Source: Salegentibacter mishustinae (GTDB lineage Bacteria > Bacteroidota > Bacteroidia > Flavobacteriales > Flavobacteriaceae). From it: a stretch of DNA of 64,000 nucleotides. Position numbers and translations under genes: made by a program. Location of the stretch: positions 248,001 through 312,000 of the forward strand of contig NZ_LLKN01000002.1 of the NCBI RefSeq assembly GCF_002900095.1. The letters run 5' to 3'. The notes below the pieces were generated by a model, which saw nothing but the letters and a program-made list of their open reading frames with translations, did not search any database and was not told the origin of the DNA. Below, one piece after another: positions 1,018 through 60,462 of this stretch (the stretch's first letter is position 1; the number at the start of each line of letters is the position of its first letter).

Positions 1018-2073
1018 TTATAAGGAATAGGTTTCCAGCGCAGTTTCCTCAAGGAAATTAGCAATTAAAACCGGTACAGGGTAATCTTTCACATTCTTTA
1101 CAGGAATTCCCTCTTCTCCCACGCTCTCAGCTTTCACCCACCAAAAATGCGTATAAATATGCTGATGCGAAAGCTTATGTACCACGGGTTTTTTATTATG
1201 AAGCTGCAGCGATAATTCCTGGACTCCAAGAATTTCGTTTATTTTTTCTTCGGAAGGAAAAGCGCCTTCGCTCACCGGTTTTTCGGTTTCAATTAATGGG
1301 AACTCATATAATCCGTTCCAAATTCCCTTTCCCGTTCTTTGCTGAAGCAGGGTTTTATTTTCTTGAGAATAAACCACTAAATAATTAAAGTAGCGTTTTA
1401 TCACTTTAGTTTTCTTCAGTTTAACCGGCAGGTCTTTAATCTTATTCTTCTGTAAAGCCAAACAACCTGAACTTAAAGGACAAGTTTCACAAAGCGGATT
1501 TCGAGGTTTGCACTGAAGCGCACCAAATTCCATTAAAGCCTGATTAAAACTGGGAGGATCCTTTTCATCCAACAATTCTGAAGCAAGAGCCTTGAATTCC
1601 TTGATGCCGGCTGTTGAATTTATTGGAGTTTCTATATCAAAAAACCGAGATAGAACCCGATAAACATTCCCATCTACTACCGCAACGGGCTCATTATAAC
1701 AAATAGAAGCAATGGCGGCAGCGGTATAATCGCCAACCCCTTTTAGTTCTTTGAGTTCTTTATAAGAACCCGGGAAAACGCCATTGAGCTCTTCAGCTAC
1801 GTATTTAGCGCTCTCATGAAGATTTCTGGCGCGAGAATAATAACCCAAACCCTGCCATAGTTTAAGCACTTTTTCCTGCGGCGCTGCAGCAAGATCAAAA
1901 ACACTGGGAAATGCAGATATAAAACGCTGATAATAGGGCAAACCCTGCTCTATTCTAGTTTGCTGAAGCATAATTTCACTCAACCAAATATGATATGGGT
2001 CGCTGGTTTTGCGCCAGGGCAATTCGCGTTTATTTTTTAAATACCAATCAATCAATACTTTAGAGAAAACCAT
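1018..2073 (-). CDS. mutY: A/G-specific adenine glycosylase
   Basis: Removes adenine mispaired with 8-oxoguanine. The protein has the N-terminal EIMLQQTR segment carrying the catalytic Glu, the helix-hairpin-helix LKGVGDYTAAAI followed by the catalytic Asp in AVVDGNVYRV, and the four cysteines of the [4Fe-4S] loop (CKPRNPLCETCPLSSGC). A C-terminal NUDIX-like domain for 8-oxoG recognition begins near FNYLVVYS. ATG at 2073 is preferred over the in-frame TTG two codons upstream. About 350 residues is normal for MutY. It reads away from the divergent HU gene. Confidence 0.96.
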   Translation of the reverse strand: MVFSKVLIDWYLKNKRELPWRKTSDPYHIWLSEIMLQQTRIEQGLPYYQRFISAFPSVFDLAAAPQEKVLKLWQGLGYYSRARNLHESAKYVAEELNGVFPGSYKELKELKGVGDYTAAAIASICYNEPVAVVDGNVYRVLSRFFDIETPINSTAGIKEFKALASELLDEKDPPSFNQALMEFGALQCKPRNPLCETCPLSSGCLALQKNKIKDLPVKLKKTKVIKRYFNYLVVYSQENKTLLQQRTGKGIWNGLYEFPLIETEKPVSEGAFPSEEKINEILGVQELSLQLHNKKPVVHKLSHQHIYTHFWWVKAESVGEEGIPVKNVKDYPVPVLIANFLEETALETYSL

Positions 2074-2158
2074 ACACAAAATAGACTTGGTGCAATATTA
2101 AAAGTTTATTCCGTTATTATTTAATGAATTAGGCTTGAAATATTGTAGATTTAATTCT

Positions 2159-2166
2159 TATATTTG
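2159..2166 (+). promoter_or_regulatory. Bacteroidota-type -7 promoter box for the HU gene
   Basis: TATATTTG matches the Bacteroidota -7 consensus TAnnTTTG. A TTG at 2135-2137 lies 21 bases upstream, a plausible -33 element. The HU start codon is about 50 bases downstream. Confidence 0.6.
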
Positions 2167-2217
2167 CGCCCTTGAAAAATATAGAAATCCCAATTTATAA
2201 TATTAAATAGTACGAAA

Positions 2218-2508
2218 ATGACGAAAGCAGATATTGTAGCAAACATTTCAGAAAAATTAGGAATGGAAAAAGGTGATGTCCAGGCTACTATTGAAACCTT
2301 CATGGATGAGGTTAAAACTTCATTAGAAAGTGGAGATAACGTATATTTAAGAGGATTTGGAAGCTTTGTTGTAAAAACAAGAGCCGAAAAAACCGGAAGA
2401 AATATCTCTAAAAACACAACTATTAAAATCCCTGCACACAACATTCCGGCTTTTAAACCAGCCAAAATATTTGTTGAAGGGGTAAAAACTAACGTAGAAG
2501 TTAAGTAA
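2218..2508 (+). CDS. hup: HU family DNA-binding protein
   Basis: A 96-residue nucleoid protein: N-terminal helices (MTKADIVANISEKLG) and the beta-arm with RGFGSFVVKTRAEKTGRN and the conserved proline tip near IPAHNIPAFKPAK. It bends and compacts DNA as a dimer. A consensus -7 promoter sits about 50 bases upstream, and a tiny basic-protein gene and RNase G follow on the same strand. The overlapping opposite-strand frame (2151-2531) is a shadow. Confidence 0.95.
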   Translation: MTKADIVANISEKLGMEKGDVQATIETFMDEVKTSLESGDNVYLRGFGSFVVKTRAEKTGRNISKNTTIKIPAHNIPAFKPAKIFVEGVKTNVEVK

Positions 2509-2563
2509 TTCGAAACCCTAATAAGTTTCACAGAAAATAATTTATTAATTAAAAAGGAACACT

Positions 2564-2653
2564 ATGCCAAGTGGTAAAAAAAGAAAAAGACATAAGGTAG
2601 CTACGCACAAGCGTAAAAAAAGAAACAGAGCTAACCGCCACAAGAAAAAGTAG
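2564..2653 (+). CDS. 29-residue highly basic small protein
   Basis: ATG at 2564 opens a 29-codon frame ending TAG at 2653. The product starts MPSGKKRKRHKVATHKRKK, ends NRHKKK, and is about two-thirds Lys, Arg or His. A-rich sequence precedes the start, and the stop codon lies in the stem of a downstream terminator hairpin, as expected for a real short gene. Its composition fits an rRNA-binding ribosomal peptide or a nucleic-acid-binding peptide. Short proteins of this kind occur in other Bacteroidota; I cannot name the family with confidence. It lies between HU and RNase G. Confidence 0.8.
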   Translation: MPSGKKRKRHKVATHKRKKRNRANRHKKK

Positions 2654-2670
2654 TTTTCATACTACTTTTT
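2645..2670 (+). terminator. Intrinsic terminator after the small basic protein
   Basis: AAAAAGTAGT (2645-2654) and ACTACTTTTT (2661-2670) form a perfect 10-bp stem with a 6-base loop followed by T residues. The stop codon of the 29-residue gene is inside the left arm. Confidence 0.8.
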
Positions 2671-2815
2671 TTGTTTAAAACGTTCATTGAAATTGAAACC
2701 CAGCTTATTACCTAACAAGTTTAGGGTTTCTTCAGGATTAAAAACCCTGTGATAAAATAATGTTTAATCCATCTGTAACTGCCTAGGCAGCTATAGATAT
2801 AAATCGAAATAGAGT

Positions 2816-4354
2816 GTGGACAAAGAATTAATTATCAGGTCCGGAACCTCTGCTGTAGATTTTGCCTTACAAAAAGATGGAAAACTTATTGAACTCAACA
2901 AAGAAGAAGACAGCAACAAATTTAATGTTGGTGATATTTTTATTGCCAAGATTAGAAAAGCTGTACCTGGGTTAAATGCTGCATTTGTAAATGTTGGCTA
3001 CGAGAAAGATGGTTTTTTACACTATCACGATCTCGGCCCCCAGGTATCTTCCATGCTTAAGTTCATAAAACGTGTAAGCACAGGTAAATTAAAAGATTAT
3101 TCCTTAAAGAATTTTACATTCGAAAAGGATATTGACAAAGACGGCGTAATTACCGATGTCTTAAAGTCAAATCAGTCGCTACTGGTTCAGGTTGTTAAAG
3201 AACCTATTTCTACCAAAGGCCCCAGGATAAGTTCAGAGCTTTCTATTGCGGGTCGTTATATAGTACTGGTACCTTTTTCTAATCGTATTTCAGTTTCACA
3301 AAAAATTGAAAGTAAAGAAGAAAAGGACCGGTTAAAAAGATTGGTAAAAAGCATTAAGCCCAAAGGTTTTGGGATTATTGTTAGAACCGTAGCCGAAGGC
3401 AAAAAAGTAGCAGAGCTGGACAAAGACCTTCAAAATTTGATGGGTCGCTGGACAGGAATGTGCAAGAAGATGTATAAGCCGCATCACCCCTCTAAAGTAC
3501 TAGGAGAATTAAACAGGGCTTCTTCCCTGCTAAGAGACATCTTTAATGACTCTTTTACTTCTATTATTGTAGACGACGAGACGCTTTATACACAAATTAA
3601 AGACTATGTGGGCGAGATCGCCCCGAGTAAAGAATCGATTGTTAAATTATATCAATCTAATGTTCCAATTTTTGAAAAACACGGTATCGAAAGACAAATA
3701 AAAACTTCATTTGGGCGCACCGTCTCTATGAGTAAAGGCGCCTACCTGGTAATAGAACATACCGAAGCTATGCACGTTATAGACGTAAATAGCGGTAATC
3801 GTTCTAACAAATCAAGAAACCAGGAAGATACTGCGTTAGAGGTGAACATGATTAGCGCCACAGAAATAGCCCGGCAATTAAGATTGCGAGATATGGGTGG
3901 CATAATCGTAGTAGACTTCATAGACATGGGCAAGGCTGAAAACCGCAAGACCCTGTTTGATCACCTTAGGAACGAAATGAGTGACGACCGTGCAAAACAT
4001 AAGATTTTGCCACCGAGTAAATTCGGGTTGATACAAATTACAAGACAACGCGTAAGGCCGGAAATGAATATTAAAACCCGTGAGGACAATCCTAACGGCG
4101 ATGGTGAAATTGAAGCACCAATACTTTTAATAAACAAAATGAAAACCGACCTGGAAAAACTTATAAAGAAAGATCATAAAAAGATCACTTTGAGTGCGCA
4201 TCCATTTATTGCAGCCTTTTTAACAAAAGGCTTTCCATCTCCCCGCTCGCAATGGTTTTTAGACCATAAGCGATGGGTGAAAATTTTACCTAGAGACGCT
4301 TACACGTACATGGAATATCATTTTCACGATAAAGAAGGAAATGAAATCCTTTAA
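2816..4354 (+). CDS. rng: Ribonuclease G/E family endoribonuclease
   Basis: A 512-residue protein with an N-terminal S1-like RNA-binding domain (about residues 36-130, VGDIFIAKIRKAVPGLNAAF) and the RNase E/G catalytic core. The metal-binding aspartates are D323 in VIDVNSGN and D367 in GIIVVDFIDMG. It is expected to cut single-stranded RNA in rRNA maturation and mRNA decay. It lacks the long C-terminal scaffold of RNase E, so RNase G is the better name. The start is GTG at 2816. It follows HU and the small basic protein and ends just before a strong terminator. Confidence 0.95.
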   Translation: MDKELIIRSGTSAVDFALQKDGKLIELNKEEDSNKFNVGDIFIAKIRKAVPGLNAAFVNVGYEKDGFLHYHDLGPQVSSMLKFIKRVSTGKLKDYSLKNFTFEKDIDKDGVITDVLKSNQSLLVQVVKEPISTKGPRISSELSIAGRYIVLVPFSNRISVSQKIESKEEKDRLKRLVKSIKPKGFGIIVRTVAEGKKVAELDKDLQNLMGRWTGMCKKMYKPHHPSKVLGELNRASSLLRDIFNDSFTSIIVDDETLYTQIKDYVGEIAPSKESIVKLYQSNVPIFEKHGIERQIKTSFGRTVSMSKGAYLVIEHTEAMHVIDVNSGNRSNKSRNQEDTALEVNMISATEIARQLRLRDMGGIIVVDFIDMGKAENRKTLFDHLRNEMSDDRAKHKILPPSKFGLIQITRQRVRPEMNIKTREDNPNGDGEIEAPILLINKMKTDLEKLIKKDHKKITLSAHPFIAAFLTKGFPSPRSQWFLDHKRWVKILPRDAYTYMEYHFHDKEGNEIL

Positions 4355-46164: not shown

Positions 46165-46674
46165 ATGAAAGTACAAACTTTATTGAAAAAGGATTCTTAT
46201 TCCAAAGCCGCCGGTCGCGGATTACTGGCCGGAGTTATTGGCGGATTAGCCGGAACAGCGGTAAAAAGCCTGGTAGAACATTTTTTAACTGTACGGGAAG
46301 TGGAGCAGCGTTCAGCTCAAATTAAAATTGTAGATGATCTTTCTACAAAAATCACCGGTTCTCCAATAAGTGTTGATAATGAAGAATTAGCCGAACAATT
46401 AGTGAATTTCCCAATTGGCGCCAGTGTTGGTGCGGCTTACGGTTTTGGCAAAAAAGACAATGAAAAATTAAATATTACAGACGGGATAATCTTAGGCGGT
46501 TCTACCTGGATCTCCACTCACGAAACATCCCTCCCAATGATGGGATTAGAACCAAAACCTACAGATGTTCCCATGAGAATGCAATTTAATGAACTATTTG
46601 CCCACGTTCTTTTTGGAATTACTACCGAAGTGGTTCGCAGTACAGTTTTGCAAAGATTAAACGAGAGAGATTAA
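46165..46674 (+). CDS. DUF1440 (YagU-like) membrane protein
   Basis: 169 residues. RGLLAGVIGGLAGTAVKSLVEH at the N terminus and HETSLPMMGL, NELFAHVLFGITTEVVR at the C terminus match the YagU pattern, an inner-membrane protein family of unclear role linked to acid resistance in E. coli. Hydrophobic segments suggest three or four membrane spans. It converges on the helicase gene with a 4-nt overlap. Confidence 0.7.
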   Translation: MKVQTLLKKDSYSKAAGRGLLAGVIGGLAGTAVKSLVEHFLTVREVEQRSAQIKIVDDLSTKITGSPISVDNEELAEQLVNFPIGASVGAAYGFGKKDNEKLNITDGIILGGSTWISTHETSLPMMGLEPKPTDVPMRMQFNELFAHVLFGITTEVVRSTVLQRLNERD

Positions 46675-49145
46675 TTTTCCAGGCTTTTTAGCATTCTTTT
46701 AATCCTATCTTCCAGTTTTTCTGAAGATAATTTTTCCCGAAGTCTATCGGTAATAATCGGAAAAGAGAACGGTGTTGGTTTTTCGCATTTTTTCCAAATG
46801 ATCTTTTGGTGATGAATGCGCTCTAAAGCCATTCTTAATCGGCCTTCTTCCAATTGATGCTCAAAAGTTTCCCTAAAGGATTGCAAATACAATAAATTAT
46901 CATCTTCATAATCTTTAAAAACGCTGAACAACAATTGTGAGCTACTTTGCAAATGCTTGCTTTTAATCAATTTATTCGGGTAACCGGTAAAAACCATCCC
47001 GGCAATTACCGCAATATCCCTAAATTTTCGCCTGGCCATTTCTGTAGCGTTTAAACTCTTATAAAGATCATCCATCAAGAATTCTGCGGAAAAAAGATCG
47101 TTATCTAAAACCTGTTGCATATCAATTTCCTGGTCTGAGAGTAGTTCAAATCCGTAGTCGTTAAAGGCTATACTAAACGAAATAGGCGAAAGTAAACTGA
47201 TGCGGTAAGCCAGTAAACTTCCCAAAGCCTCGTGGACAAAACGGCCCTCAAACGGATAAAATATTGCATGATAACCTTCGCGAGTCTTAAAAGTTTCTAT
47301 TAAAAACTCATCTTGCCTGGGGATAATCGATTCTTTTTGCTGCCGTTCCAGAATTGGTTGTAAAGCTTTTAATTCCTCCGATTTTCCCTTAGAACCTGCA
47401 GCAGTTGAAGCTGAGGCCGCATACATTTCTTCCCGAAGCAACTCACTCATTTGCGCTGAGAAGGCCATTCTCCCGCCCATCCAACTAGGCACTTTAGAAG
47501 TTTTTTTCTTCGATTTTCTAACTAAAACTTGCATACTTTTTATACGCACTAATTCCAGGTTTCTTCCGGCGAAGGTAAATACATCACCAGGCGTAAGTTT
47601 GGAAATAAACCATTCTTCTATAGACCCTATAAATCCACCTTTTAAATATTTAACCGTGAGTACCGCGTCGCTTACAATCGTCCCAATTTGCAGTCGGTGA
47701 CGCATAGCAATCCCGCGGTTATTTACTTTAAAAAGACCGTCTTCTTCAATTTCAATTTTCTTGTATTCATCATAAGCCTGCAAACTCTGGCTGCCTTTGG
47801 TAACGAAATTTAAGATCCATAACCATTCATCTTCAGTAATGCCCTGGAAACAAAACGTAGATTTAATTTCGGGCCAGATTTCCTTCGGAAAAAAACCATT
47901 AGAAACCGCTAAAGTTGTGAGGTATTGCACCAGAACATCAAAACTTAACAGATATGGAATTCTATCTTCTACAGCAGTCTTTTGTACCGCTTTTTGTAAA
48001 GCTGAAGCTTCAATAAGTTCTATAGCGTGTGTGGGTAAAAAATGAATTACACTTTCTTTTCCCGGTTGGTGGCCGCTTCTTCCAGCCCGTTGTAAAAACC
48101 TTGCCACACCCTTTGGTCCGCCAATTTGAATAATGGTTTCCACAGGTGCAAAATCCACTCCCAAATCAAGGCTAGAAGTGCAAACCACAGCTTTTAAAGT
48201 TTCATTTCTAATAGCCTGTTCAACCCAAAGCCTGGTTTCTTTATTAATGCTACCGTGATGCATCGCAACTTCCCCGGCAAACTCCGGATATTTATGCATT
48301 AATTTCTGAAACCAAAGTTCGCATTGCGAGCGAGTATTGGTAAAAAGCAGCGTGGTTCTGGAATTTTTAATAATCGGCACTACCTCATCAATCAAGTGCA
48401 AACCCAAATGGCCTCGCCAAGGAAACTTTTCCATTTTCTCCGGAATAATAGATTTCACGCTGATTTTCTTCTTTAGATTCGCCCTGATTAAAGTTGAATT
48501 TTGAAAGGCTTCGGAATCAGGACCGAGCAAAACCTCTCGTGCCTGTTCGAGATTACCAATCGTGGCCGAGATTCCCCAAATGCGTAGATCTTTTGAAACC
48601 GTTTTTAAACGAGACAAAGCAAGTTCCATTTGCACGCCGCGTTTAGTACCCAGTAATTCGTGCCATTCATCAACTACTACAGCATTTAGGTTTTTAAATG
48701 TTTTATCGTAGTTTTTTGAGGAAAGCAATAGCTGTAAACTTTCAGGTGTGGTAATAAGTAAATCGGGCATGGATTTTTTCTGCGCTGTGCGAACTTTTTG
48801 CGGGGTATCCCCTGTGCGAATTCCTACGGTTAAACCACTCTCAATTTCGTCAGCAAATCGTTGCGCCGACTGTTCAATTTCTACCGACAGGGCACGAAGT
48901 GGTGTGATCCAAATTGCTTTTAATCCTTTTTTTTGCTTCGTTTTATAATCGGGGTTTTTCTTAAGATAATCCAGTACTATAGGAACCCAAAGTGCATAGG
49001 TTTTTCCGCTACCTGTTGGTGCGTTTAAAAGTCCATTTTTTTTCTGCAAAAAAGCTGTCCAGGTTTGTTTCTGAAAAGCAAAAGGCTTCCATCCCTGATT
49101 AGAAAACCAGGTTTCGGCAATTTTTGTGAGTTCGTTTCTATTCAT
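46671..49145 (-). CDS. Ligase-associated Lhr-type DEXH helicase
   Basis: An 824-residue superfamily 2 helicase. Walker A is NAPTGSGKTYALW; motif II is VVVDEWHELLGTKRG (DEWH rather than DEVH); motif VI includes FLQRAGRSGHQPGK. The winged-helix and Lhr-core-like C-terminal region (CFQGITEDEWLWILNFV, GDVFTFAGRNLEL) follow. It belongs to the helicase-ligase-exonuclease repair clusters. It is now separated from the ligase gene by the DUF559 insert. Confidence 0.93.
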   Translation of the reverse strand: MNRNELTKIAETWFSNQGWKPFAFQKQTWTAFLQKKNGLLNAPTGSGKTYALWVPIVLDYLKKNPDYKTKQKKGLKAIWITPLRALSVEIEQSAQRFADEIESGLTVGIRTGDTPQKVRTAQKKSMPDLLITTPESLQLLLSSKNYDKTFKNLNAVVVDEWHELLGTKRGVQMELALSRLKTVSKDLRIWGISATIGNLEQAREVLLGPDSEAFQNSTLIRANLKKKISVKSIIPEKMEKFPWRGHLGLHLIDEVVPIIKNSRTTLLFTNTRSQCELWFQKLMHKYPEFAGEVAMHHGSINKETRLWVEQAIRNETLKAVVCTSSLDLGVDFAPVETIIQIGGPKGVARFLQRAGRSGHQPGKESVIHFLPTHAIELIEASALQKAVQKTAVEDRIPYLLSFDVLVQYLTTLAVSNGFFPKEIWPEIKSTFCFQGITEDEWLWILNFVTKGSQSLQAYDEYKKIEIEEDGLFKVNNRGIAMRHRLQIGTIVSDAVLTVKYLKGGFIGSIEEWFISKLTPGDVFTFAGRNLELVRIKSMQVLVRKSKKKTSKVPSWMGGRMAFSAQMSELLREEMYAASASTAAGSKGKSEELKALQPILERQQKESIIPRQDEFLIETFKTREGYHAIFYPFEGRFVHEALGSLLAYRISLLSPISFSIAFNDYGFELLSDQEIDMQQVLDNDLFSAEFLMDDLYKSLNATEMARRKFRDIAVIAGMVFTGYPNKLIKSKHLQSSSQLLFSVFKDYEDDNLLYLQSFRETFEHQLEEGRLRMALERIHHQKIIWKKCEKPTPFSFPIITDRLREKLSSEKLEDRIKRMLKSLEN

Positions 49146-49150
49146 GTTTT

Positions 49151-49287
49151 AACCCTTCCGTCTTATCCAGCTAACGCTGAATAATCCACCTTCCCTTAAA
49201 AAGGGAATGAACGTTTTGATGTTTAAATTTACTCTTTTAGAGTTCCCCTCCTTTTTAAGGAAGGTGCCCAACAGGGTGGAGTGGTTC
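49151..49287. repeat. Long G/C-rich repeat, left copy flanking DUF559
   Basis: About 137 bp running from AACCCTTCC to GTGGTTCAC. It is about 88% identical by eye, in the same direction, to 49668-49803, and contains palindromes based on CTTCCCTT/AAGGGAA and CCCCTCC/GGAAGG. It starts 6 bp after the helicase start codon and ends on the DUF559 stop codon. Confidence 0.88.
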
Positions 49288-49648
49288 ACTTTTTAAAATT
49301 ATCCTCGATCTCTTTCAAAACCGAAGGCAAAAAATCAAACACCATTCTATTTTCAAACCGTATGACTTTAAATCCCCAATCTTCCAGTTTTTTAGTTCTT
49401 TTTTCATCTTTTTCTTCAGCGAGAGGATTTTTGTGCACATCCCCATCAAGTTCTATAATGAGTTGTTCTTCTGCGCAATAAAAATCCACTATAAAATTTT
49501 CTATACTATGTTGTCTCCTAAATTTTCTTCCCTTGAGCTTTCTTCGTTGTAACTGTTTCCATAAAAATGCTTCAGCAGGAGTTAAATTATTCCTTAAAGC
49601 TTTTCGGTAGGGTTCGAGATGTTTTCTATTATGGCTTGGTTTTTTCAT
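49286..49648 (-). CDS. DUF559 domain endonuclease-like protein
   Basis: About 120 residues from ATG 49648 (a longer start at 49678 would lie in the flanking repeat). The Vsr-like DUF559 fold is clear: NLTPAEAFLWKQL, RRQHSIENFIVDFYC and LIIELDGDVH, with candidate acidic catalytic residues Glu, Asp and the ExD pair; WGFKVIRFENRMV follows. It is inserted between the ligase and helicase genes on the same strand, bracketed by two long direct repeats. The fold suggests a nuclease; its biological role is unknown. Confidence 0.88.
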   Translation of the reverse strand: MKKPSHNRKHLEPYRKALRNNLTPAEAFLWKQLQRRKLKGRKFRRQHSIENFIVDFYCAEEQLIIELDGDVHKNPLAEEKDEKRTKKLEDWGFKVIRFENRMVFDFLPSVLKEIEDNFKK

Positions 49649-49667
49649 TTTTTTTAATTTTCTCTGC

Positions 49668-49803
49668 AACCCTTCCATCTTATCCTGCTAACGCTGAATA
49701 ATCCACCTTTCCTTAACAAGGGAAGGAGCGTTTTGTTGTTTTAATTTCCTTTTAGAGTTCCCCTCCTTTTTAAGGAGGGGTGCCCGATAGGGTGGGGTGG
49801 TTA
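49668..49803. repeat. Long G/C-rich repeat, right copy flanking DUF559
   Basis: About 136 bp from AACCCTTCC to GTGGTTAAT, a direct copy of 49151-49287. It includes a clean 9-bp palindrome CCCCTCCTT/AAGGAGGGG. Its end contains the ligase stop codon (49801-49803). Confidence 0.88.
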
Positions 49804-51396
49804 ATCCGGAATTAAATCCCGCAACTCACCCAATGTATTTGCTTCGTGTATGTTTTTATCGGTACGCCAGCGTACCATTCTGGGAAAACGGGTTGCTACC
49901 CCGCTTTTATGGCGTTTGGACTCTGCTATTCCTTCAAAAGCAATTTCAAAAACGTGGTGTGGTGTCACGCTTCTAACGGGTCCAAAACGCTCTAAAGTGT
50001 TTTTCTTGATCCACGCATCGAGTTTTCTAAATTCGGCATCGGTTAAACCGGAATAAGCTTTGGCAAAAGTTACCAGTTCCTTTTTATCATCATTCCACAA
50101 ACCGAAAGTATAATCGGTAAATAAATTGCTTCGTCTTCCGTGACCACGCATGGCATAAGTGAGCACCGCATCTACCGTAAGCGGATCTACTTTCCACTTC
50201 CACCAGTCGCCTTTTTTTCTTCCCACTAAATATGGAGAATCCAATCTTTTCAACATCAAGCCTTCCGATTTTTCCTCCCGGGCACGTTCGCGTTCTTCGG
50301 CAACTTCAGCCCAATTTTTAAAAGAAATTCGTTCAGATAAATGCAATGGAACTTCTTCAGAAGAAACCCCGGCATAGAGTTTCTCCAGAATTTTTCTTCT
50401 TTCAACAAATGGCTCGGTTCTAATATCTACTCCTTTCCATTCCAAAACATCATAAGCTTTTAAAATTACCGGGGTTTTCTCCAGTAATTTTTTACTGATA
50501 TTTTTTCTTCCAATTCTTGTTTGCAAATCTTTAAAGGTTCCAATTTTCCCGTCTGGAAAAGGCAAAATTTCTCCGTCTATTACCGTTCCGTTGGGAATTT
50601 TCCCCACGAAATCTTCAAATTCGGGATACTTATCGGTGACCAGTTCTTCCCCCCGGCTCCAAACAAAAAGTTCGTCATTCCTAATAATTACCTGAGAACG
50701 GATGCCGTCCCATTTATGCTCTGCACTCCAATTAGCCACATCTCCTAATTCTTCAATTTCATCATCTATGGCATAGGCCAGGTAAAACGGATAAGGTTTT
50801 GACAAATAATCTTCTTCGTTTTCTTCTAAAATCAGTTTTTTAAAAGTGGTTTTTTCAGGCTTCCAGTTACCCATCATCTTATAGGCAAGAATATCTTCGT
50901 CGATATCAGTTGCTTTTGAAAGTGCACGCGTCATTAATTTTTGACTTACACCTATGCGAAAACTTCCGGTGATGAGTTTGGTAAATACAAAACGCTCGTA
51001 ATAATTAAGCTCCAGCCAGTTTTTATGCAAATAGTCCTTTTTTTCTGATTCGGCTTTAGGTTTTAACTCTAATATTTCCTGGAGGAATTGATTAAGGCTT
51101 TTTTCGGTATTTTCTTCGGCTGGCGGAATTACCAAAGCGATTGTTTCTGCCAGATCGCCAACAATATGATAAGATTCTTCAAATAGCCATAAAGGAATAT
51201 TAGCCAATTCTGAAGCCCATTGGCGCATTAAAGTAGTATTTACAGGCCTTGGTGGCCTGCGATGTGATAAAATAGCGATAGTCCAAACCTTGTCTTTATC
51301 TGCGGCATTTTTAAAATAATGCGTTAAGGCCTCAACTTTTAGGGTAGTTTTGTTAGTGCTGTCCAGGGTTTTTATAAGCTCTGCAAAGTCCTTCAT
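49801..51396 (-). CDS. ATP-dependent DNA ligase
   Basis: A 531-residue ligase of the LigB/archaeal type. The adenylylated lysine is in AEHKWDGIRSQV (motif I), with VIDGEILPF (motif III), KSEGLMLKRLDSPY (IV) and DWWKWKVDP (V). It acts in a known DNA repair cluster with the exonuclease upstream and the Lhr-type helicase downstream. It is separate from the NAD-dependent replicative ligase. Confidence 0.94.
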   Translation of the reverse strand: MKDFAELIKTLDSTNKTTLKVEALTHYFKNAADKDKVWTIAILSHRRPPRPVNTTLMRQWASELANIPLWLFEESYHIVGDLAETIALVIPPAEENTEKSLNQFLQEILELKPKAESEKKDYLHKNWLELNYYERFVFTKLITGSFRIGVSQKLMTRALSKATDIDEDILAYKMMGNWKPEKTTFKKLILEENEEDYLSKPYPFYLAYAIDDEIEELGDVANWSAEHKWDGIRSQVIIRNDELFVWSRGEELVTDKYPEFEDFVGKIPNGTVIDGEILPFPDGKIGTFKDLQTRIGRKNISKKLLEKTPVILKAYDVLEWKGVDIRTEPFVERRKILEKLYAGVSSEEVPLHLSERISFKNWAEVAEERERAREEKSEGLMLKRLDSPYLVGRKKGDWWKWKVDPLTVDAVLTYAMRGHGRRSNLFTDYTFGLWNDDKKELVTFAKAYSGLTDAEFRKLDAWIKKNTLERFGPVRSVTPHHVFEIAFEGIAESKRHKSGVATRFPRMVRWRTDKNIHEANTLGELRDLIPD

Positions 51397-60408: not shown

Positions 60409-60462
60409 TAACCCCTCCGCCTATCGGCACCTCCGCTTAAGAAAAGGGGAGGAACTCTAAAA
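60409..60462. repeat. Short copy of the G/C-rich DUF559-flanking repeat
   Basis: AACCCCTCCGCCTATCGGCACC and GGGGAGGAACTCTAAAA match the reverse complement of the core of the repeats at 49151-49803, in inverted orientation. It directly follows the VOC gene on the minus strand. Confidence 0.8.

Follow-up and report, generated by a model that had tools for sequence, protein, structure and literature searches.

DUF559 nuclease genes bracketed by palindromic repeats look like overlooked mobile DNA in many bacteria

Introduction

Small nuclease genes of the DUF559 family, accompanied by palindromic repeats and standing at varying sites in many bacteria, look like overlooked mobile DNA. The unit described here, from Salegentibacter mishustinae (Flavobacteriaceae), is probably a compact mobile element composed of a DUF559 nuclease and REP elements, REPtron-like and homing-like at the same time, with an enzyme unrelated to RAYT. 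DUF559 genes are associated with hairpins, change their site over evolutionary time and reside in frame inside host genes; their product has a nuclease fold, and its catalytic domain is under selection. A bolder proposal is that DUF559 and its triple-tract REPs make up a class of mobile DNA of their own, found across bacteria and able to enter intergenic gaps and also, staying in frame and needing no splicing, the genes of essential proteins, with hairpin tracts that could form a triplex; our judgement on it is nearly balanced, leaning slightly towards doubt.

These readings would suggest a role for a protein family that is common but whose function is unknown, and a probable enzyme for widespread pyrimidine/purine hairpin repeats. 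They also bring to light that essential enzymes, among them methionine synthase and leucyl-tRNA synthetase, can harbour a nuclease without an intein. In the open-access literature, searched through titles and abstract openings and with subscription papers outside its scope, no report linking DUF559 to such repeats was found.

The unit between the ligase and helicase genes

The window, that is, the whole stretch of 64,000 nucleotides analysed, is G000:C2:248001-312000 of a genome of 3.82 Mb; its relevant features are collected in Table 1. A single DUF559 gene (PF04480, E 4.7e-32) lies exactly between the stop codon of an ATP-dependent ligase and the start of an Lhr-type helicase (domains WH_Lhr and DEAD_assoc by Pfam), as the earlier note had reported. 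Since the helicase ORF starts at 49145 and the ligase stop codon occupies 49801-49803, the gene and its two repeats fill the whole gap; by coordinates, the repeat ends reach 2 nt into the ligase stop codon and 1 nt into that of DUF559. Comparison with relatives makes the ATG at 49646-49648 the likelier start of the gene. Among the matches listed, the nearest named relative for the DUF559 set of the window genome is Salegentibacter sp. R32 (79%).

Table 1. Features of the DUF559 locus and of the related copy elsewhere in the window (window coordinates)
Feature	Coordinates	Strand	Description	Basis
Lhr-type helicase gene	46671..49145	-	Downstream neighbour of DUF559, ORF intact	ORF list and Pfam
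REPIN-like repeat, helicase-side copy	49151..49286		Inverted REP pair with spacer; outer ends AACC...GGTT	
REP element, type CTTCC	49151..49207	+	AACC-CTTCC-GTC, inner hairpin, CACC-TTCCC-loop-GGGAA	Architecture compared by eye with other copies
REP element, type CCCCTCC	49245..49286	-	Inverted relative to the CTTCC-type element	
DUF559 (PF04480) nuclease ORF	49286..49678	-	130 codons	ORF list, Pfam, alignment, AlphaFold model
REPIN-like repeat, ligase-side copy	49668..49802		AACC end overlaps ligase stop codon	
ATP-dependent DNA ligase gene	49801..51396	-	Upstream neighbour of DUF559, ORF intact	ORF list and Pfam
Lone degenerate REP-like copy	60409..60462	-	Without DUF559 gene	Search and shuffle folding

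The direct repeats around the gene, already seen by eye, are borne out by alignment: 121 of 135 aligned letters are the same, two ungapped segments, of 86 and 31 nt, are 88% and 97% identical, respectively, and a search with copy 1 finds copy 2 at E 7.9e-43. Within the window, CTAACGCTGAATAATCCACC (≤3 mismatches) occurs only in these two repeats, no occurrence being expected. The palindromes that had been claimed for them are reflected in their folding, in which copy 1 surpasses 200 of 200 shuffled sequences (z -4.5) and copy 2 surpasses 195 of 200 (z -2.2). The short inverted copy also reported near the end of the window is present, but it is degenerate and folds no better than its shuffles (z -0.8).

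Each repeat, of about 136 bp, consists of two unlike REPs, of the CTTCC and CCCCTCC types, inverted with respect to each other and separated by a spacer, and is thus REPIN-like; REPIN is the term given to inverted REP doublets in a paper that also describes singlets and tandem arrays including flanking sequence (PMC3116915). The REP elements share an architecture in which a first pyrimidine tract is followed by an inner hairpin or short spacer, a second pyrimidine tract, a loop and a purine arm. Repeats in 20 stretches of five genomes, standing there without the gene, have the same architecture by eye, some of them as REPIN pairs, and none lies inside an open frame of more than 129 codons. In these 20 stretches, read by eye, the tetranucleotide GT[AG]G that marks the 5' foot of the hairpin in REP/RAYT systems was not found there, the ends being mostly AACC/GGTT; the CCCCTCC type does have GTGG, within GGGGTGGTT, yet at the opposite end, and the CTTCC type is devoid of it.

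Features typical of insertion sequences and MITEs are irregular or missing. The orientation of the flanking REPs varies by locus, direct at the window site and inverted in others, so that terminal inverted repeats are found in some loci and direct ones in others. No target-site duplication was seen by eye at the window site, where its absence had been remarked before, at a second site or in metH, and no fixed element boundary was seen, the linker of metH being replaced and not simply opened. The second pyrimidine tract mirrors the first more often than it copies it directly (169 vs 48 of 408 instances, 191 ties, p 3e-14), a result that is exploratory because the instances are not independent and the commonest class, CCCCTCCT, is without the preference (13 vs 16 of 62). 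These mirrored tracts hint at compatibility with a triplex.

The enzyme

The window protein matches PF04480 with 110.5 bits (cut-off 20.6); apart from DUF559, Pfam returned a weak match to REase_MTES_1575 and no Y1_Tnp, so that the protein is not a HUH enzyme. The Vsr-like nuclease fold proposed from the sequence is well founded, a PD-(D/E)XK/Vsr-like fold being accompanied by conserved acidic residues: in an alignment of 29 sequences D65, E76, D78 and H82 are invariant, and both the profile and the AlphaFold model (pLDDT 89) match 3hrl, annotated as an endonuclease-like protein, and 3r3p, with a weak further match to 1vsr (Vsr, E 0.03). The second of these structures, 3r3p, is the catalytic domain of the homing endonuclease I-Bth0305I, recovered by profile at E 3e-5 and by Foldseek at E 1.4e-4 with probability 1.0. 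A DUF559-containing gene has been assigned to the EDxHD family in a section on inteins (PMC9403480).

Two other identities were considered and rejected: a known defence gene, for which PADLOC-DB gave no match, and a phage gene, for which there were only four weak PHROG matches, three of them of unknown function. The window protein and two in-frame copies match, below its cut-off, the NCBIfam model PRK09767, which we take to stand for E. coli YcjD.

Variation at the same site among genomes of the genus

Comparison with relatives, suggested in the earlier note as a search for an empty site, shows that the unit is not universal, the window site holding a short gap, a solo repeat, a unit or an array. 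Of 31 genomes, 14 yielded the ligase; 12 of these belong to the window genus, and the gap was read in those 12. It is short in G001 and G005 (17 nt each), G010 (23 nt) and G011 (53 nt); the 17 nt of G001 and G005 resemble the last 12 nt of the repeat joined to the 5 nt that precede the helicase start, and these two gaps may therefore be scars and not virgin sites. G007 has one repeat and no gene, its solo repeat matching the ligase-side repeat of G004 at 93% identity. Repeat, gene and repeat follow each other in the window genome and in G004, in which the gene is frameshifted near its end; G002 has a DUF559 gene with a more complex REP set, and G006 has a repeat, the gene and then five tandem repeats, joined by pieces like the first bases of the helicase and a DUF559 end. 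A different short hairpin, CTCACAGGTTTT...AAAACCTGTGAG, occupies the site in G008, G009 and G014 (L137, L139, L140); it is similar to one beside the repeat in L288 and perhaps represents a second repeat family.

There is a second site, located behind a VWA-domain gene; seven of 14 genomes have it filled and the other seven unfilled. One of the fillings is a pseudogene and another, in G014 (L276), consists of three tandem DUF559 genes with hairpins; the unfilled site of G009 keeps a fragment of repeat-like sequence.

Hairpins at DUF559 loci in other bacteria

In the earlier note, an ancient ordinary gene would have been indicated by relatives that all retain the unit, together with DUF559 genes elsewhere never associated with such repeats. 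Neither is the case: the relatives vary at the window site, and DUF559 loci elsewhere mostly have hairpins of this general architecture on their two sides. In a set of 99 loci from the genus and the family, a few of them overlapping (L066/L094, L027/L030), compared over 220-nt flanks with 297 control pairs from the same loci, the best flank stem had a median score of 19 against 14 in controls (p 2e-52), both flanks exceeded the 95th percentile of controls at 28 loci against 2 of the 297 control pairs, and left and right flanks were alike (p 2e-23). In a second set, of 80 named loci, strong stems stand on both sides in 41 of 77, on one side in 30 and on neither in 6, whereas none of 400 control pairs has them on both sides and 44 have them on one. 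The 5' arm is pyrimidine in 101 of 157 flank stems of the named loci and in 37 of 800 control stems. Hairpins of this kind number 6.08 per kb up to 100 nt from the domain, compared with 0.03-0.08 per kb at more than 500 nt, about a 100-fold difference; at some loci (L236, L245, L265) hairpins of this type are absent.

The association extends over distant lineages, REPs close to AACCACCCC, a small hairpin and CACCCCTCCTnnnnAGGAGGGG being common to loci of Chlorobiota (L233), Acidobacteria (L263) and Bacteroidota. It also holds on plasmids of Alpha- and Gammaproteobacteria, Deinococcus and Cyanobacteria: in 15 plasmid-borne loci, taken from 42 matched records with near-duplicates and clinical organisms left out and two E. 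coli records kept separate, a qualifying hairpin is present in 19 of 30 flanks, compared with 4 of 90 control windows. In plasmids of two Deinococcus species (L339, L344), DUF559 stands between genes of the hpaB-hpaE group.

Repeats, DUF559 and Y1_Tnp across genomes of the family

Two exact repeat patterns, with reversed patterns as controls, were searched in 249 genomes of the family, representing 235 genera. The pattern CCCCTCCTN{2,7}AGGAGGGG is present in 16 of the 249 genomes and CCTTCCCTN{2,7}AGGGAAGG in 27, while each reversed control is present in one. A DUF559 match was found in 31 of the 33 repeat-bearing genomes (weak in G116 and G133) against 88 of the 216 others (p 2e-9), a link that stems in part from repeats beside the gene itself; G170 and G226 bear repeats and are without a DUF559 match. 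Conversely, 88 of the 119 DUF559 genomes are without either exact repeat type, because the exact patterns catch two of many REP sequence types. In at least 20 of the 33 repeat-bearing genomes, by hand and among the places listed, a copy lies more than 3 kb from any listed DUF559. Copy numbers are low on both sides, with 0-20 exact copies of the two repeat types and 0-10 listed DUF559 matches per genome.

These genomes also bear on the reading in which the repeats belong to a TnpA-REP (RAYT) HUH transposase, or to some other enzyme, with DUF559 as no more than a frequent neighbour or passenger. In-frame REPs of TnpA-REP classes have been reported from Bacteroidetes and Cyanobacteria (PMC6006769), the window genome has two Y1_Tnp genes, and Y1_Tnp is somewhat commoner in repeat-bearing genomes (19 of 33 vs 78 of 216, p 0.016), all of which would suit it. 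Yet 14 of the 33 have no Y1_Tnp match, 12 of these 14 having DUF559, and the link between DUF559 and repeats holds within Y1-negative (p 1e-4) as well as Y1-positive genomes (p 1.2e-4); moreover, the flanks of Y1_Tnp have other hairpins, a strong pyrimidine-arm hairpin being found in 1 of 50 of them against 89 of 157 DUF559 flanks. TnpA-REP was rejected as the mover on account of this independence and of the different hairpins, and we give the passenger reading as a whole a small probability.

In-frame copies, descent and selection

In the unselected list of the genus, 13 of 30 DUF559 rows lie within stop-to-stop frames of more than 300 codons, and translation places DUF559 inside metH, leuS and ileS. 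In the family and phylum, DUF559 also lies in frame within recG and hemD (N-terminal) and, as judged by eye, within restriction, methylase and specificity genes; seven host ORFs, from six genes, are confirmed by Pfam, namely metH, leuS (two sites), ileS, recG, hemD and hsdR, host names beyond these six being a reading of the sequence by eye. The in-frame copies were fetched on purpose from the family and phylum matches, together with 20 free-standing ones, and their share among the loci is therefore not a frequency. Their flanking hairpins are translated as peptides, such as APQPPKGE and PPSGAGGAG, and a cyanobacterial CDS on a Pseudanabaena plasmid (L347) is annotated as one frame across its DUF559. 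In the seven host ORFs scanned, no intein domain was detected at E 1e-5 and the reading frame is continuous. The leuS of G008 (L007) differs from that of G004 after GMILG, possibly through another in-frame insertion.

Host alleles with and without the insertion coexist, metH being filled in nine and empty in five of 14 same-genus genomes, and the same metH linker is filled, with different repeats, in G030, a member of another family. The metH of G243 has two inserts, each at its own site; they share 89% identity, and among 140 domains each is the closest relative of the other.

These 140 distinct domains (108 columns) were placed in a tree with many open forks, from which L192-L271 and the loci of the metH/ligase search were left out. 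Copies group by host gene across genera, with 21 label changes against a mean of 78 in shuffles: those of hemD, HsdR and recG each form one clade, the 21 metH rows require 3 changes, and the metH and leuS groups also take in L189 (a peptidase gene by eye) and L181. In 195 of 210 metH pairs and 205 of 210 leuS pairs the inserts are no more alike than their hosts, the pattern expected of mostly vertical descent, and by these comparisons many in-frame copies look to have been inherited in this way for the most part. Two cases are discordant between host and insert, leuS of G004/G008 (host dS 0.34-0.41, insert 1.71) and metH of G009. An estimate of dN/dS was obtained for 18 of 24 insert pairs and lies at 0.04-0.16, so that the catalytic domain is, by these estimates, under purifying selection; the catalytic motif survives in 78 of 85 in-frame copies and in 51 of 55 free ones, and in the leuS copies L110 and L112 the motif is lost, the frame is retained and no strong hairpins are left.

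Purifying selection would equally be expected if DUF559 were an ordinary repair or defence nuclease gene, randomly inherited and lost and framed by terminators or regulatory hairpins, and this explanation can also point to hairpins after genes, which can be terminators, and to the restriction-modification genes among the hosts (by eye; hsdR by Pfam). It accords poorly with the likeness of the two flanks in named loci, far above that of control pairs (p 6e-24), with the solo and tandem repeats at the orthologous site and with the lack of a PADLOC-DB match, and copies in frame inside ORFs are unlikely to be terminators, for which reason terminators were rejected as the explanation of the hairpins. 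Its probability is very small in our view.

The grouping by host gene and the discordant leuS and metH histories agree with pure homing, although the divergences of insert and host do not prove it. In this reading a DUF559 endonuclease would cut the host allele that has no insert, and repair would copy its gene in, with incidental hairpins that ease or insulate the insertion. The structural match to I-Bth0305I points the same way, as does L111 (G153:C1:234000-238900), in which an ORF (1866-4016, minus strand) combines a DUF559-like nuclease with a weak, sub-cut-off match to an intein splicing domain (E 2e-6). Pure homing, however, leaves unexplained why hairpins of one architecture accompany intergenic and in-frame DUF559 genes of many phyla, and why gene-less repeats elsewhere track DUF559; we regard it as unlikely.

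A proposed mechanism and its relation to known systems

In a mobile element made of nuclease and repeats, the DUF559 nuclease would recognise the hairpins, or their site, when single-stranded or extruded, and would nick or cut them, and repair or recombination would then copy into the target the repeat, the gene, or the two together. If a copied repeat-plus-gene recombined with a resident repeat, a direct-repeat bracket like that of the window would result, and recombination between the bracketing repeats would leave a solo repeat like that of G007. Recognition, cleavage and the copying step by the nuclease are what we infer here. The gene-dwelling lineages carry short, stop-free REPs, which would permit in-frame residence in linkers and loops of essential proteins without splicing. 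The suggestion of a mobile unit comparable to REP/RAYT pairs with an unrelated enzyme thus draws support from site polymorphism, the hairpin association and the in-frame copies, the action of the nuclease being presumed. Several observations speak against a mobile element: target-site duplications and a fixed boundary were not seen, the flanking REPs vary in orientation, DUF559 is present in low copy number, the inserts mostly follow their hosts in descent, 36 of 77 named loci have no strong stem on one side or on both, a few repeat-bearing genomes have no DUF559 match or a weak one, and most DUF559 genomes are without either exact repeat type.

REP/RAYT systems likewise have a small nuclease gene flanked by palindromic repeats and gene-less copies elsewhere in the genome, and they share the inverted doublets, singlets and tandem arrays including flanking sequence (as outlined in PMC3116915), an array of this kind being found in G006. 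They differ in their enzyme, RAYT being a HUH Y1 transposase and the DUF559 product having a Vsr-like fold, and in their repeats, those of DUF559 having a further pyrimidine tract, mostly AACC ends and few exact copies per genome; in addition, the DUF559 gene itself changes site, also into coding genes. With the EDxHD nucleases and I-Bth0305I, DUF559 has in common a homologous catalytic fold and insertion at recurrent sites of conserved genes, but the in-frame copies checked are without an intein, stay in the host frame and are bracketed by REPs. Palindromic DNA read through in proteins is familiar from the Rickettsia palindromic elements and other in-frame palindromic inserts; unlike the Rickettsia elements, the DUF559 unit encodes its own nuclease, and it exists both with and without it.

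The ycjD gene of Escherichia coli

The idea is directly testable, because laboratory strains of E. coli carry ycjD with similar repeats beside it. In JM109 this gene, annotated as DUF559, lies between sapF and fabI, and a 551-bp ycjD query matches 3365 of 5426 E. coli genomes. YcjD has been predicted to be a Vsr-related nuclease (PMC1189080) and appears as a hypothetical gene with a restriction-like fold at the eef locus (PMC12817139); neither paper gives it a function. As in the window unit, hairpins of similar architecture are found near the DUF559 gene: downstream of ycjD in H240 and KE47 there are, by eye, degenerate and fuller ones, and a stretch of 1801 bp that takes these in is 99.8% identical between H240 and each of BW25113 and TOP10. 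A 1.8-kb query matched a median of four places per genome, and in one record (H112) the hairpin part alone was matched.

In two genomes without ycjD (L354, L355), an efflux RND operon stands beside fabI in its place; such an operon at this gap is described in PMC12817139. Because the operon occupies the gap in these two genomes, the ycjD-minus allele is not a clean empty site. The alternation of ycjD and the efflux operon beside fabI is a switch of gene content at a DUF559/REP site.
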